From the IMG/VR virus record IMGVR_UViG_3300009108_000019, positions 1-43,207 of that record: DNA of 43,207 nucleotides, one strand, 5' to 3'. Both the position numbers and the translations under genes were made by a program. The notes under the pieces are model-generated. The model made no database searches and had not been told where the DNA came from. It saw only the letters and a list, made by a program, of their open reading frames with translations. Positions 3,227-16,198 of this stretch are shown piece after piece. Positions within the stretch are counted from its first letter, which is position 1. Every line of letters begins with the position of its first letter. The DNA comes from a virus.

Positions 3227-3595
3227 ATGCTACCAATAGGAACACTTTTAAATATAGGTGGAAAACTTGTCGGCGGATATATGTCTCGTAGAAGAGCTAT
3301 ATCTGACCAAAAACATAGAGTAGCCTTAGAAGAAATTAGAACAGGTAATGAAAGAGCTAAAAGAAATGGCTCTTTAATACTTGATTTACTTCTTGGTTCT
3401 TTTATTTTAGCACCTTTAGGAATTTTAGCATACGGAACATTTTGGGGAGACCCTGCGATGTTATCCAAAACTAAAGACTATTTTGATTTATTAAAACAAA
3501 TACCTGACGTATATTTATATTTAATCTTTATAGTAGTAGGGGGTAACTATGGAATTTCTGTCACAAATTTATTATCGGGTAAAAAGTTTAAGTAA
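3227..3595 (+). CDS. Holin-like membrane protein
   Basis: A 122-residue protein with a basic N-terminal stretch (MSRRRAISDQKHR) and two clear hydrophobic segments, about residues 50-72 (LDLLLGSFILAPLGILAYG) and 94-115 (VYLYLIFIVVGGNYGISV). A weak amphipathic helix at the N-terminus could be a third. This layout and the position at the head of a run of small membrane proteins fit a holin of the three-helix type known from gene-transfer agents and marine phages. A holin permeabilises the inner membrane and times lysis. Ribosome site AAGGAG. The end overlaps the next gene by 47 bases. Confidence 0.6.
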   Translation: MLPIGTLLNIGGKLVGGYMSRRRAISDQKHRVALEEIRTGNERAKRNGSLILDLLLGSFILAPLGILAYGTFWGDPAMLSKTKDYFDLLKQIPDVYLYLIFIVVGGNYGISVTNLLSGKKFK

Positions 3596-3806
3596 AGTTT
3601 TCAATTTTTGGAACGTATACTTAGGTAGCACTATAGCAATCATTCTTATGGTTGCTTTTGTACTTTTAACAGGTTGTGAAAATATGAAACAAACTATTGG
3701 AATATCTACTAATCCTTTTAGTTCTAAAATGGAAGAAAAAACAAAATTAAATTATAAAATAACATTTGGTAAAATTAGACCAAAGGAAGATGATGACGAT
3801 GATTAA
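3549..3806 (+). CDS. Small putative lipoprotein, possible spanin-like
   Basis: An 85-residue protein. After a basic N-terminal part there is a hydrophobic stretch (STIAIILMVAFVLLTGC) that ends in LLTGC, a good lipobox with Cys at about residue 43. The mature part is short and polar and ends in five Asp. The start is backed by AGGGGG five to seven bases upstream, inside the end of the holin-like gene. Overlapping genes for a membrane protein and a small lipoprotein next to a holin resemble Rz/Rz1-type spanins, but the arrangement is not diagnostic. Exported to an envelope membrane by inference. Confidence 0.6.
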   Translation: MEFLSQIYYRVKSLSKVFNFWNVYLGSTIAIILMVAFVLLTGCENMKQTIGISTNPFSSKMEEKTKLNYKITFGKIRPKEDDDDD

Positions 3807-4751: not shown

Positions 4752-5072
4752 ATGAATGGAATGAAATTTAACGCCGCTTTAATTTTTGCGGTTCTACTAC
4801 AAGCTATAGGATTAGTTTGGTATGTCAGTAAAATTGATAGTAAAGTTAATATCCTTTATGAAAAATATGCTGAAGAAAGTAAAACTGAAGTAGTTGAAAA
4901 TCAAGTGCGTATGAAACTTGATATAGAGAATTTATTAAAAGATGTTAATGATATTAAAACAGAATTAAAGAAAGCTAATAATAAAGATAAAAAGATTATG
5001 AAACAACATAATCAAATCTTTAAATTATTAAAAAAGAAGAAAAAAGTAGATAGTGACTATAGTTATGAGTAA
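4752..5072 (+). CDS. Membrane-anchored coiled-coil protein
   Basis: A 106-residue protein. Residues 6-25 (NAALIFAVLLQAIGLVWYV) form one membrane segment; residues 30-95 are a charged helix with repeated I/L spacing (DIENLLKDVNDIKTELKKA) ending in a poly-Lys run. It has the same overall plan as the proteins at 3938 and 4143: an anchor plus coiled coil. It might oligomerise in the periplasm or act as an inner-membrane spanin-type rod, but no family is recognised. Confidence 0.55.
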   Translation: MNGMKFNAALIFAVLLQAIGLVWYVSKIDSKVNILYEKYAEESKTEVVENQVRMKLDIENLLKDVNDIKTELKKANNKDKKIMKQHNQIFKLLKKKKKVDSDYSYE

Positions 5073-5346
5073 GATTTTACTCATAATTACAATATGTTCT
5101 AATTTAGGTTGTCTACCCCCAATGACTAATGCAAAATGGGAGTTTACAAATGAAGAACAATGTTATAAAAAAGGCTATTATGCTATTGCAGAAATAGCTG
5201 AAACTTATATGGACACTGTAGGTGTTCAAGAGTTCAAACATATGCAAGTTAGAATGTTTTATAACTGTGTATCGGAAGAACAATGGAAAGAACAAATGAA
5301 ACCAGTAGAGGAAGGAAAGCCGTCAGCATTTGAACAAGATGCTTAA
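5065..5346 (+). CDS. Small exported protein with Cys pair
   Basis: A 93-residue protein. The first 20 residues (MSKILLIITICSNLGC) are a signal-peptide-like stretch ending in either a weak lipobox (NLGC) or a signal peptidase site near MTNA. The mature part has two Cys (EEQCYKKGYY and FYNCVSEEQW), likely a disulphide in the periplasm. I chose ATG 5065; a GTG at 5053 in the same frame overlaps the upstream gene further and breaks the signal-peptide pattern. Unknown function, last of the small envelope-gene run. Confidence 0.55.
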   Translation: MSKILLIITICSNLGCLPPMTNAKWEFTNEEQCYKKGYYAIAEIAETYMDTVGVQEFKHMQVRMFYNCVSEEQWKEQMKPVEEGKPSAFEQDA

Positions 5347-5689: not shown

Positions 5690-5882
5690 AATAGAAAAAA
5701 TTATAGAAGAATTACCTGAATTATTAGTTAAACACGCATACCAAAAATTAAAATCAGGACAAGAGCTAACTGCTTCAGAAATGAAAGTATGTTTAGAAGT
5801 TTGTAAAACTTATAGCTCTGAAAAATTAGGTGCAAAACCTGATAATATTCTTGAGAAAGTACCTTTTGACACAAATGGATAA
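5595..5882 (+). CDS. terS: Small terminase subunit (DNA maturase A-like)
   Basis: A 95-residue protein directly before the large terminase, which it overlaps by 8 bases (ATGGATAA). The N-terminus is charged and disordered; residues 35-80 form a helical region (ELPELLVKHAYQKLKSGQEL, then ASEMKVCLEVCKTY) of the type that oligomerises and recognises DNA in T7 gp18-like subunits. It is near T7 gp18's length (89 residues). GGAG at 5582-5585 gives 9 bases of spacing to this start. Identification rests on size, fold pattern and position. Confidence 0.75.
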   Translation: MLNQSPKKENGDTQKVQTKVSQKNDIEHKGVRIEKIIEELPELLVKHAYQKLKSGQELTASEMKVCLEVCKTYSSEKLGAKPDNILEKVPFDTNG

Positions 5883-7515
5883 TCGCTTAAAAAATTTTAA
5901 GAATTTTTTGTATTTATGTTGGAAGTTTCTAAACCTACCTAACCCAACTCCCATACAATATGATATAGCAGACTATCTACAGTCAAATGAACGTAGATTA
6001 GTTATAGAAGCCTTCAGAGGCGTTGGTAAATCTTGGATTACTTCAGCATTTGTCTGTCACCAACTTTTACTAAATCCTCAAAGGAATATATTGGTAGTTT
6101 CAGCTTCTAAAAATAGAGCTGATGACTTTAGTACCTTTACTCAAAGACTAATCAATGAAATGCCAATATTACAACATCTAATTCCTAGAGATGACCAAAG
6201 ACATTCTAAAATTAGTTTTGATGTAGCTCCTGCTACCGCTTCTCACGCACCTAGTGTGAAATCTATGGGTATTACAGGACAGCTTACAGGTTCTCGTGCA
6301 GATTTAATTATTGCCGATGACGTAGAGTCAGCAAATAACTCACAGACTCAGTTAATGAGAGATAGATTAAGTGAAACTGTGAAAGAATTTGATGCGATTA
6401 TTAAACCCGATGTGGGTCGTATCATATTCTTAGGAACACCTCAAACTGAAATGAGTTTATATAACACATTAGAGGAAAGAGGTTATAAGACAAAAATATG
6501 GACAGCGTTATATCCAACTAAAGAACAAACGATTGGTTATGGTAGTAAACTGTCTACTATTATTTCTAATATTACAGATAAAGAAGGTGAACCTACAGAC
6601 CCTCAAAGATTTGATGGTATAGATTTATTAGAGCGTTTGTCTTCCTATGGACGTTCAGGATTTAACTTACAGTTTATGTTAGACACTACAATGTCTGACG
6701 CTAATAGATACCCTTTAAAGCTCAATGACTTAATTGTAGCTTCAGGTTGTACTACTTGGAAAAAAGCTCCTGCTCAAATTCAGTGGGCTTCAGGTACTCA
6801 ACAATTAAAAGGGGTAGACCCTGAGATACCTAATGTAGGATTAAAGGGTGATTATTATGTTGCTCCTTTACACTTATCTGAAGAATATACAGATTTTGAA
6901 GGGGTGGCTATGTCTATAGACCCTGCGGGTCGGGGAGAAGACAAAACAGCGTATGCGGTGCTTAAAATGCTTCACGGAGTGCTTTATTTGACCGACATAG
7001 GAGCTTTAGATGGTGGTTACTCAGATGCTACCTTAGAAGAGCTTTCAGCTATAGCTAAACGTAACAAAGTGAATAACGTGGTTATTGAATCTAACTTTGG
7101 TGATGGTATGGCTACAGCGTTATTAAAGCCTGTTATGGCTAGAATACACCCTTGCCAAATTGAAGAGGTAAGGCATAATATACAAAAAGAGAAAAGAATT
7201 ATAGATACCTTAGAGCCTATTATGAATACTCATAGGCTAGTGGTAGACGAGAATACAATAAAAGAAGACTTCAAGTTAGAACCTAATCATCAACTGTTTA
7301 GGCAAATGACTAGAATAACTAGAGATAAAGGTGCGTTAAGACACGATGACCAAATTGACGCATTAGCTATTGCGGCTAATTATTGGGTTGAAAGAATGGA
7401 CAGAGACCAAACTTTATCTTATCAACAACATAAAGACGAACTAATCAATAAAGACTTAGAAAGGTTTATGGAGCACACAGTAGGTATACAACCTAAACGG
7501 GATAGGTTCATTTAA
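5875..7515 (+). CDS. terL: Large terminase subunit (T7 gp19-like)
   Basis: A 546-residue DNA-packaging motor. The ATPase domain has Walker A (AFRGVGKS, residues 46-53), Walker B (LIIADD, 144-149, with E151) and the coupling motif LGTPQ (186-190). The nuclease domain has SIDPAGRGEDKTAY (D349), VVIESNFGDG (E405) and HDDQIDALA (D491, D492, D495), the acidic metal cluster of RNase H-fold terminases. It cuts concatemers and pumps DNA into the prohead through the portal. The start at 5875 overlaps terS; an in-frame ATG at 5830 would add 15 residues inside terS and lacks support. The stop codon overlaps a phage promoter. Confidence 0.95.
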   Translation: MDNRLKNFKNFLYLCWKFLNLPNPTPIQYDIADYLQSNERRLVIEAFRGVGKSWITSAFVCHQLLLNPQRNILVVSASKNRADDFSTFTQRLINEMPILQHLIPRDDQRHSKISFDVAPATASHAPSVKSMGITGQLTGSRADLIIADDVESANNSQTQLMRDRLSETVKEFDAIIKPDVGRIIFLGTPQTEMSLYNTLEERGYKTKIWTALYPTKEQTIGYGSKLSTIISNITDKEGEPTDPQRFDGIDLLERLSSYGRSGFNLQFMLDTTMSDANRYPLKLNDLIVASGCTTWKKAPAQIQWASGTQQLKGVDPEIPNVGLKGDYYVAPLHLSEEYTDFEGVAMSIDPAGRGEDKTAYAVLKMLHGVLYLTDIGALDGGYSDATLEELSAIAKRNKVNNVVIESNFGDGMATALLKPVMARIHPCQIEEVRHNIQKEKRIIDTLEPIMNTHRLVVDENTIKEDFKLEPNHQLFRQMTRITRDKGALRHDDQIDALAIAANYWVERMDRDQTLSYQQHKDELINKDLERFMEHTVGIQPKRDRFI

Positions 7516-7541: not shown

Positions 7542-7565
7542 TAAAGCTATTACTATAGCTGTTTA
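7542..7565 (+). other. 5' stem-loop just downstream of the promoter
   Basis: AGCTAT-TACT-ATAGCT, extended by TAA/TTTA pairs with one bulged G. A stem-loop at the start of a phage-polymerase transcript could protect the message, as 5' stem-loops do in T7 (inference). Confidence 0.5.
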
Positions 7566-7581
7566 CTTACTCACTCTTCTT

Positions 7582-8196
7582 ATGCAGATAGAATTATGGA
7601 GAAATGTGAAAATTGTGGACACGAGTGCCACTGCGACAAAGAGACTCATCAAGATAATTGTTGTGGGTCTTGTAACTGCGATACTTCTAGGGATAACGAT
7701 AGGACATACGAAACAAATGGATAATACTGAAATAGAATATTTAAAAAAGAGAATTAAAAAACACGAAGGTTATAGAGAATTACCTTATAATCTTGAATAT
7801 AAGACAACAGATGGAAAAGTAGTAAAAGAAAACTTCTCTACAGCAGGTTTTGGTCACGTTATTCAAGCAGGAGAAGTAGAACCTGAAGGTGGTTACACTA
7901 AGGAGTATTGGGAAGGTGTCTTTGAGAAAGACTTTAAGAACGCTCACGATGGAGCTTTAAAACTGTTAGGAGACAGTAATGTCCACCCTACAGCAGTAGG
8001 TATAGTAACAGAAATGATATACCAAATGGGATATAATGGTGTCTCTAAGTTTACAAATACCTTAAAATTAATTAAAGATGGTAGATACCAAGACGCTAGT
8101 ATAGAAATGTTGGACTCAAAGTGGGCTCAACAGACTGATGAAAGAGCTATAGACTTGTCTCAGATAATGAAAAGCCTAGAAGCTAATATTCAGTAG
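7582..8196 (+). CDS. Endolysin, GH24 lysozyme with possible signal-anchor-release N-terminus
   Basis: The T4-lysozyme-type domain starts near residue 46: KKHEGYRELPY carries the catalytic Glu, and FSTAGFGH the catalytic Thr region. The later MIYQMGYNGVSKF and LDSKWAQQT segments also match the family. From ATG 7582 the protein is 204 residues, with a membrane segment at 22-41 (LIKIIVVGLVTAILLGITIG) that would make it a SAR endolysin, exported by Sec and later released from the membrane. From the internal ATG 7717 it is 159 residues, close to T4 lysozyme's 164, and would need a holin. Neither start has a strong ribosome site. The anchor region also encodes the cysteine-rich micro-protein at 7596 in another frame. 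It cleaves peptidoglycan glycan strands. Confidence 0.85.
   Translation: MQIELWRNVKIVDTSATATKRLIKIIVVGLVTAILLGITIGHTKQMDNTEIEYLKKRIKKHEGYRELPYNLEYKTTDGKVVKENFSTAGFGHVIQAGEVEPEGGYTKEYWEGVFEKDFKNAHDGALKLLGDSNVHPTAVGIVTEMIYQMGYNGVSKFTNTLKLIKDGRYQDASIEMLDSKWAQQTDERAIDLSQIMKSLEANIQ
7596..7724 (+). CDS. 42-residue Cys/His-rich micro-protein overlapping the endolysin
   Basis: ATG 7596 opens a 42-residue frame with eight Cys and three His: MEKCENCGHECHCDKETHQ, then DNCCGSCNCD. The CxxCGHxCHC and CCGSCNC spacing looks like a metal-binding knuckle and is hard to explain by chance in DNA this AT-rich. Small proteins with NCGHxCHC occur in marine phages as I recall. The stop overlaps the internal endolysin ATG 7717 as ATGGATAA, the same 8-base overlap seen at the terS/terL junction, which suggests translational coupling. 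Function unknown. Confidence 0.55.
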   Translation: MEKCENCGHECHCDKETHQDNCCGSCNCDTSRDNDRTYETNG

Positions 8197-8370
8197 AAAA
8201 ATTTGAGTAGGTATCACGCTTACGGCGAGAGCCACGCTCCCCCAAAGGGGGCATAAAAATTTTAAAAATTGGGGATAACCCCGCTTCAATATGGCGGGTC
8301 GCTTCCTATATAAGGCTCAAGCGTAGTAATAGGCACACCGCAGAGGATATATAAAGCGGTTATGGGTAGC
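8197..8370. other. Structured gene-free region after the endolysin; possible late terminator or genome end
   Basis: No gene is seen on the + strand from 8197 to 9061. This first part is GC-richer than its surroundings and full of hairpins: GGC-GAGA-GCC (8224-8233), CCCCC-AAA-GGGGG (8239-8251), GGGG-ATAA-CCCC (8271-8282), CCCGC/GCGGG (8280-8298, exclusive with the previous one) and ACCGC/GCGGT near 8337-8360. It lies between the last late gene and the early genes, where T7-like phages keep their terminal repeat, so it may hold the packaging end and late terminator. No experiment-type evidence for the end is visible. Confidence 0.5.
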
Positions 8371-8530
8371 CTTTGGCTTCTATTTTATTTTTTCGTTTGT
8401 TAGAGCTAGTCTGTTTTTTTCGTTTGGTGTTATACTTTTTGTTTTCTCTTATCTATTCTCTTTTGTTTTTGTCTTCTCATTCTCTTTAATATCCATAGCA
8501 ACACATCAAGCAAGACAAACAAGACAACAT

Positions 8531-8620
8531 TTATTTTATTAATGCGGAAGCAATCAAAGTAAATGCAATTAATATAATCCAAAATAAAACATATAATATC
8601 TTCTCTTTAATTCTTTTCAT
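8531..8620 (-). CDS. Leftward membrane micro-protein (tentative)
   Basis: On the minus strand, a 29-residue frame MKRIKEKILYVLFWIILI followed by AFTLIASALIK: a basic start then one membrane helix. AAAAGGA lies 9 bases before this ATG; another ATG 9 bases upstream gives 32 residues. The plus strand here is pyrimidine-rich for about 260 bases, opposite to all other genes, so the minus strand has the purine bias of coding strands in this phage. It would be the only leftward gene. Too short to be sure. Confidence 0.35.
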   Translation of the reverse strand: MKRIKEKILYVLFWIILIAFTLIASALIK

Positions 8621-8768
8621 TCTCTTCATTCCTTTTATTAATTAGTTATAAGTAAGTAAGTTATATAATAGCTAGAGTTAAAGCCTATATCACTAATAAG
8701 GGAACTTTAATCAAATAAGGCAACAATGCCACAAACTGCGTCAGAGTGTCGCACTTATCATTATTTTG

Positions 8769-8796
8769 TTGAATAGCTATTTTATTAGTTTATAAG
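8769..8796 (+). promoter_or_regulatory. Candidate host sigma70-type early promoter
   Basis: TTGAAT (8769-8774), 16-base spacer, TATAAG (8791-8796). It lies upstream of the first early genes and is the best -35/-10 pair I see in the gene-free region. AT-rich DNA gives such pairs by chance, so confidence is limited. Confidence 0.35.
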
Positions 8797-8836
8797 GATT
8801 ATATGTTCAGTAATTTTTATGAATAAATTAATAGTT

Positions 8837-8853
8837 ACTTGATTTTATCAAGT
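8837..8853 (+). promoter_or_regulatory. Perfect inverted repeat in the early leader
   Basis: ACTTGAT-TTT-ATCAAGT, a perfect 7-base inverted repeat downstream of the candidate early promoter. It could be an RNA stem or a regulator binding site; nothing in the sequence decides. Confidence 0.4.
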
Positions 8854-8884
8854 GAATTCTTAACTAGATTTAAGTAGTTTAAAT

Positions 8885-8998
8885 TGCTTCTCACGGCTTC
8901 CGCCTCATAGAAGCTACAGTTAAAGAGTGGGACACCTCAACAGCTAGGCGATAGGGTCTAGGGAGCAGGTTTAGAGTGGTACTCAGTCCACCGATTAA
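8885..8998 (+). ncRNA. Structured early leader RNA (candidate)
   Basis: Successive stems: GCTTCT ... AGAAGC (8886-8914) containing GGC-TTCC-GCC, then a region with CAGCTAGGCG, then GTGG-tactcagt-CCAC near 8977-8992. It contains the word GCTAGGCG that recurs in hairpins at 9437 and 10528. It lies about 60 bases before the first early gene. Could be a processing site or regulatory leader; no known RNA family is recognised. Confidence 0.4.
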
Positions 8999-9061
8999 AT
9001 AAGTTTGTTTGTATCTAGTATTAACTAGAATTTATTAACATTAACAAAAGGGTCAAATCTT

Positions 9062-15634: not shown

Positions 15635-15798
15635 TAGGTAGAGTAATTTATAAACAAGAGAGTGTGCAATACTATTCAGAATCAAAAGATGAATGGATTG
15701 ATGTAGATACTATGGACGAACAACATTGTCGTAATGCTCTTAAAAAAATTATTAGAAAGTATGGAGTGATAAATGAGCAATATAAGAAAAGAAACTAA
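15631..15798 (+). CDS. Small hypothetical protein, 55 residues
   Basis: MIGRVIYKQESVQYYSESKD, then EWIDVDTMDEQHCRNALKKI and a basic end. Start overlaps the endonuclease stop; its last 26 bases overlap the lysozyme-like gene. Soluble, mixed charge; no family recognised. Tight coupling on both sides supports it as a real gene. Confidence 0.55.
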   Translation: MIGRVIYKQESVQYYSESKDEWIDVDTMDEQHCRNALKKIIRKYGVINEQYKKRN

Positions 15799-16198
15799 AT
15801 ATATTGTTATTCATTCTTCAGAAACTAATCCGACACAGAATTTTGACGTAAAGGATATTGACATACAGCACAGAAAAGAAGGTTTGTTCTCTTGTGCATT
15901 TCACAAAGTTATTACTAGAAAAGGTGAAGTGCAAGATGGAAGAGACATACAAATCGCAGGTGCTCACGTTGATAGTAATGTTAAATTGTCAAATAAAAAT
16001 TCTATTGGTATTTGTCTAATCGGTGGACAGACAATAGATGGTAAGCCCGATTGTAATTTTACTTTTAAGCAATACGAAGCTCTTTTAGAGTTAATTCGTG
16101 ATTTAAAAAAAGATTATAAAGAGGTTCAGATAGTTGGTCATAGAGATATGACTGACTCCTTATCTCCGCATTTTAACGTAAGTGAATTGCTGAGATAG
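15773..16198 (+). CDS. T7-lysozyme-like protein (gp3.5 family), probably not catalytic
   Basis: A 141-residue protein of the N-acetylmuramoyl-L-alanine amidase type 2 fold, alignable with T7 lysozyme throughout: IVIHSSETNPTQNF, NSIGICLIGG and the C-terminal VGHRDM. T7 lysozyme uses Zn ligands H17, H122, C130 and residues Y46 and K128. Here H14 and H123 remain, but the Tyr is Phe 43 (CAFHK), and in TDSLSPHFN the Lys and the ligand Cys are replaced, the Cys position by Ser 131 in my alignment by eye. Amidase activity is therefore doubtful. T7's protein also binds and inhibits the phage polymerase; that role may be what is kept. A separate GH24 endolysin exists. Confidence 0.85.
   Translation: MSNIRKETKYIVIHSSETNPTQNFDVKDIDIQHRKEGLFSCAFHKVITRKGEVQDGRDIQIAGAHVDSNVKLSNKNSIGICLIGGQTIDGKPDCNFTFKQYEALLELIRDLKKDYKEVQIVGHRDMTDSLSPHFNVSELLR

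Follow-up and report, generated by a model that had tools for sequence, protein, structure and literature searches.

Likely dual coding of a cysteine-rich micro-gene and an endolysin membrane segment in phages that appear to be of the SAR11 type

Which proteins are specified by the 5' end of the endolysin gene downstream of terL in the virus of IMG/VR record IMGVR_UViG_3300009108_000019 (positions 1 to 43,207; this whole stretch of 43,207 nucleotides is termed the window)? An ORF for a small cysteine-rich protein, MEKCENCGHECHCDKETHQDNCCGSCNCDTSRDNDRTYETNG (pattern CxxCxxxCxC...CCxxCxC), is nested in the +1 frame in the 5' end of the endolysin ORF, the Cys ATG lying 14 nt after the endolysin ATG, and a 66-base leader separates terL from the nested ORFs (Table 1). 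A first-pass annotation had placed both ORFs and their overlap correctly and had offered three readings, namely that the stretch is dual coding, that translation of the endolysin begins at 7717 and the anchor is only apparent, or that both endolysin forms are produced. The comparisons presented here, which are of sequences, on balance favour dual coding of a Cys gene and a membrane segment. Dual coding together with synthesis of both enzyme forms is the best explanation of the locus and, in our judgement, somewhat more probable than not.

The nearest relatives of the window lysozyme are the lysozymes of Pelagibacter podoviruses, and the C-terminus of the terL product is 80-82% identical to its Pelagibacter podovirus counterparts. 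Scans of viral contigs gave, with near-identical copies excluded, 30 aligned sequences of the module (the window and 29 uncultured viral contigs), in all of which it lies between terL and a lysin gene; by blastn it is present in no phage record of the collection. Its carriers are uncultured and appear to form a group of SAR11-type marine phages. The module exists in four divergent types, A (n=14, the window included), B (n=14), C (contig L133) and D (contig L223). Since A and D share ancestry, and likewise B and C, these constitute two to four partly independent tests and not 30. The 30 aligned sequences and four types all share the micro-ORF with its cysteines and the hydrophobic segment, which bears out the initial impression that both frames are non-random.

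Table 1. Features of the window that bear on the endolysin locus and on lysis
Feature	Position	Strand	Remarks
Small membrane-protein ORFs	3227-3806		
Possible Rz/Rz1-like pair	4752-5346		Weak PHROG spanin match (E 0.13)
terL	5830-7515	+	Upstream neighbour; rate yardstick
Conserved leader, AGCTAT-TACT-ATAGCT (inverted repeat) and TACTTACTCACT	7545-7575	+	After terL; kept in types A-D
Endolysin ORF, long form	7582-8196	+	204 aa; hydrophobic N-terminal segment; T4-lysozyme-like
Cys-rich micro-ORF	7596-7724	+	42 aa, 8 Cys; TAA at 7722-7724
Basic flank and hydrophobic segment, KRLIKIIVVGLVTAILLGITIG	7639-7704	+	Residues 20-41; candidate SAR-type/anchor segment
AGGA, SD-like motif	7701-7704	+	12 nt before ATG 7717
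ATGGATAA, stop/start overlap	7717-7724	+	Micro-ORF TAA overlaps in-frame endolysin ATG; lysin-exchange breakpoint
Short soluble endolysin ORF	7717-8196	+	159 aa, from internal ATG
T7-like amidase	15773-16198		Amidase_2 2e-13, phrog_822 4e-42

Judged by homology, the Cys gene is real, since its cysteines are maintained in each type and many marine phages carry stand-alone homologues. The CxxC...CxC...CxxCxC pattern is retained across types A-D of the 30 aligned sequences; the type B protein has 56-57 aa and reads KCERCDKECHC...CVNCNC. Homologues lacking the cysteines, or with stops in the Cys frame, had been named by the first-pass annotation as grounds for dropping the idea; in every module type the cysteines are kept. 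Cultured pelagiphages of other kinds possess stand-alone homologues, one preceding the capsid gene (Gjalp gp42) and others near baseplate genes (Mosig_00110 and the HTVC008M homologue), and further ones are present in dozens of viral contigs; one pattern scan of bacterial genomes did not find the family. For the Cys frame, comparison of type A with type B gives pN 0.30 and pS 0.69, and purifying selection on this frame is well supported by the alignments. The protein probably binds metal, a reading taken from its cysteine spacing, since searches of Pfam, PHROG and NCBIfam with the window peptide gave zero matches at E<=1; it was not placed in the prokaryotic metallothionein or any other named Cys-rich family. 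The Cys gene of type C (L133:1740-1925) is hybrid-like, its first half corresponding to a stand-alone GHLCHCVEADHEGC gene and its second half to a type B module.

An ATG equivalent to 7717 is found in 30/30 module sequences, preceded in each at 11-14 nt by an SD-like motif (AGGA, AAAG or GAGGT) in differing surroundings; in types B and C, GAGGT at 11-14 nt replaces AGGA. Comparable SD-to-start spacing is found at other genes of this phage. Soluble lysins of sister phages begin at the equivalent position: both in cultured Pelagivirus relatives and in some 60 sister contigs, the lysin opens at the terL stop or near it and has no membrane segment. In a few sister phages (L148, L150, L151 and L154, and also L134) terL and the lysozyme gene are separated by an extra gene whose start is signal-peptide-like and whose product is secreted-hydrolase-like. 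As had been remarked previously, ATGGATAA also occurs at terS/terL (5875-5882); the window shows no excess of the octamer (5 observed against 2.8 expected). While terL is listed from GTG 5830, this second copy suggests a start at ATG 5875, overlapping the terS stop, and that ATG is the likely start of the gene.

Three lysin families join the module at the internal ATG, namely T4-lysozyme-like, Pesticin (PF16754, E 1e-38) and phrog_873-type. By blastn, contigs L019 and L030 are 95-97% identical to the window up to position 7726, and L223 87% identical up to 7724, with no match thereafter in the lysin; in L017 the terL protein is identical and the lysin different. On these alignments whole lysin domains recombine at a sharp hot spot, the internal ATG. 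Lysin exchange at one start codon beside nearly identical terL was seen among the window (7717-8196), L017, L019, L030, L033, L037, L043 and L046. Since the ATG and SD-like motif are present in 30/30 and three lysin domains have been swapped there, a soluble enzyme is very likely made from 7717.

The muralytic catalytic domain that a SAR endolysin possesses is present in the window endolysin, which matches T4 lysozyme (PDB phmmer 3e-9; Foldseek 1e-7, prob 1.00), and its enzyme domain is mostly confident in the AlphaFold model. E62 and T87 are invariant in alignment A4, and in the stretch 7764-7845 a beta-hairpin insertion occupies the position where the catalytic Asp of E-X8-D-X5-T is expected; the related soluble lysin of L014 keeps the canonical spacing.

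In the frame read from 7582, R7, K10, K20, R21 and K24 precede the charge-free segment IIVVGLVTAILLGITIG, which is weakly hydrophobic and contains Gly, Ala and Thr, as do SAR segments. A charge-free run of 17-18 residues is joined to the lysin in all four types. Why the new frame yields a membrane segment is explicit: with the Cys, Asn and Asp codons read at an offset of one base, TGY gives Val or Ala and RAY gives Ile or Thr. In simulations given the Cys protein, an open +1 frame had P=1.0 for types A and D and 0.14-0.25 for B. Openness alone was rejected as evidence, being automatic for A and D, and so was hydrophobicity alone (Kyte-Doolittle maximum, P 0.08-0.45). The charge-free run, whose probability was computed given the Cys protein sequence and phage codon usage, gave P values of 0.005, 0.001 and 0.006 for three type A sequences, 0.008 and 0.011 for type B, 0.005 for C and 0.016 for D; among 20 stand-alone homologues used as controls, the lowest value was 0.04 and the others were at least 0.16. 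The run depends on the rare codons GGG and AGG, in place of which the common GGA or AGA would insert Asp or Glu. In the stand-alone homologues this frame has hydrophobic runs of about 10 residues and, in all of them, stops; it is never open. The upstream in-frame ATG is present in 29/30 module sequences and precedes the Cys ATG by 14 nt in types A and D; in B the distance is 11 nt, exactly one codon shorter. In type C a TAG stands in the upstream frame, having come with the first half that resembles stand-alone genes, and the membrane segment restarts at a new in-frame ATG directly before it.

Differences between the window and type D fall on the three Cys codon positions in the ratio 7/6/4, compared with 23/13/103 for terL (P 7e-5). 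The test against terL alone was set aside as too generous, since the Cys gene evolves fast. Repeated with the variable sites of stand-alone homologues (50/36/100), it is significant for the window-D comparison only (P 0.015), the within-type position bias giving P.22 and.30 against these controls. In the Cys frame, window and D show a single synonymous change against an expectation of about 6 (divergence 0.048; terL 0.293). Averaged over type A, the A-D Cys-frame pS is 0.134, in the lowest 3.7% of terL windows, and within type A the Cys-frame synonymous rate is.050 vs.086. The lowered synonymous rate for which the first-pass annotation had advised looking is seen in the window-D, A-D and within-A comparisons and not between A and B, where it is not reduced; taken plainly, the drop is suggestive only. 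To the annotation's other question, which frame keeps its residues in homologues, the answer is the Cys frame; the membrane frame shows no amino-acid conservation between A and B (pN 0.37, pS 0.30), although for a membrane segment it is the character, not the residues, that has to be kept. The AlphaFold model has a helix at residues 17-35, with pLDDT <50 for residues 1-43. Overall, the codon simulation and the position bias, the latter only partly against stand-alone controls, give moderate support for selection on the membrane frame.

The leader after terL is conserved across differing flanks, both in its inverted repeat, AGCTAT(N)ATAGCT, and in the adjoining motif, and may be a promoter-like or leader element. 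Neither a sigma-70 promoter nor a terminator was found at this site, its RNA structure is ordinary (z 0.39) and it has zero Rfam matches. Types A, B and D have no SD before either 7582 or 7596; a strong one is present at the type C Cys ORF.

We propose that a gene for a small Cys-rich protein was inserted downstream of terL, ahead of the lysin gene. The lysin would have retained its own start at 7717 and its own SD-like motif, coupled to the Cys stop through the overlap, and would from there be made in soluble form. Overprinting would have turned the +1 frame of the Cys gene, which its codon make-up renders hydrophobic, into a membrane segment in frame with the lysin and accessible from ATG 7582. 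Initiation at 7582 would produce a membrane-tethered (SAR-like or anchored) enzyme; ribosomes starting at 7596 would produce the Cys protein and then, by re-initiation at 7717, the soluble form. The pyrimidine-rich leader may permit starting at either site. Translation of each form, release from the membrane and competition between the starts are predictions from the arrangement of the ORFs.

The locus could instead be composed of two ordinary genes, the Cys micro-gene and a soluble endolysin coupled to it through the same overlap, the N-terminal extension being an untranslated +1 by-product. This reading is somewhat unlikely, but it accords with the sister phages examined, which start their soluble lysins at the equivalent ATG, with the universal presence of the internal ATG and SD-like motif in the module, and with terL, which has the same overlap and probably uses its internal ATG; for A and D proteins the +1 frame is automatically open and usually hydrophobic, and short hydrophobic runs already exist in stand-alone homologues. 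What it leaves to chance is a charge-free run that would rarely arise from the Cys protein of any of the four types, the use of rare GGG and AGG exactly where the common codons would give acidic residues, the retention of the upstream in-frame ATG and the depletion of third-position changes. Of the option of a start at 7717 with an illusory anchor, the start is strongly supported (30/30, SD-like motif, swap breakpoint); the purely illusory anchor, opposed by the moderate evidence of selection, keeps some probability. The production of both endolysin forms fits best, since the 7717 start is strongly supported and the anchor frame carries that moderate evidence. The anchored form is unproven, since +1 hydrophobicity is partly automatic, no SD precedes 7582 and the lysins of sister phages are soluble.

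That only the long tethered endolysin is real, with the Cys ORF and internal ATG incidental, is extremely unlikely: the ORF is open from the upstream ATG in 29/30, but this idea is largely refuted by cysteines conserved in A-D and in the stand-alone genes of unrelated phages, by the strong SD at the type C Cys ORF, by A-vs-B purifying selection in the Cys frame and by the internal ATG in 30/30. It is also very unlikely that the Cys gene and the long endolysin are made while the internal ATG is a relic yielding no short form. Lysins are joined at the junction ATG, which could thus have been inherited, yet the ATG and the SD-like motif, whether AGGA, AAAG or GAGGT, persist through indels and behind very different upstream sequences.

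Two-polypeptide endolysins with in-frame internal starts are known, among them Ms6 Lysin384 (PMC3111421), CTP1L (PMC4777826) and LysIME-EF1 (PMC7098653), and have been surveyed (PMC9430671). The locus resembles them in that a long and a short in-frame product are predicted for one gene, and in its conserved internal start codon with a ribosome-binding site, here an ATG with an SD-like motif throughout the module. Their known hosts are Gram-positive or mycobacterial, and their short form is the C-terminal enzyme part, whereas the predicted short form here is the whole enzyme; the part dropped is the membrane segment only, and is also a second gene. With the SAR endolysins of Mu (gp22; PMC9239132), N4 (PMC12642591) and HP1 (PMC7312051) the long form shares a weakly hydrophobic N-terminal segment with Gly, Ala and Thr after basic residues, and a muralytic enzyme. 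It differs in that the candidate segment is dual coded, occurs on three different lysin domains and is accompanied by a retained unanchored start, and export and release are only predicted. In phage Mu, basic residues before the SAR segment make release depend on a releasin (PMC9239132); since five basic residues precede the candidate segment here, firm anchoring is possible as well, and a segment of this SAR-like make-up may be of SAR type or a firm anchor. Embedded Rz/Rz1 spanin genes (PMC6139136) likewise nest a lysis-region gene in another frame of a lysis gene, but here the nested gene specifies a Cys-rich peptide and its host is the endolysin N-terminus. The soluble lysozymes of the Pelagivirus phages HTVC168P, HTVC142P and Eistla are homologous, follow terL directly and start at the equivalent of 7717; they lack both the membrane extension and the Cys gene. 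The arrangement was not found described in the literature searched; it combines the known principles of overprinting, SAR-type lysins and internal starts or dual-product endolysins.

If correct, the dual coding and two enzyme forms would be an unusually compact route to membrane-bound and free forms of one enzyme, and would suggest a way for abundant SAR11 phages to combine holin-dependent and Sec-dependent lysis. The overprinting would be traceable, with a likely ancestral frame (the stand-alone Cys family), a likely ancestral enzyme (the soluble lysins) and four fusion variants available. More doubtfully, the dual-coded cassette might set the ratio of tethered to soluble endolysin, the two closely spaced upstream starts competing and the Cys-rich protein acting as a regulator; together with this tentative reading goes the equally tentative one that any lysin joined at the internal ATG would fall under the same control.

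Elsewhere in the window, the two small ORFs of the possible Rz/Rz1-like pair overlap; the N-terminus of one is hydrophobic, and the other starts like a lipoprotein. The region after the endolysin gene (8197-9061) has no clear genes and contains short imperfect repeats and T-rich runs.
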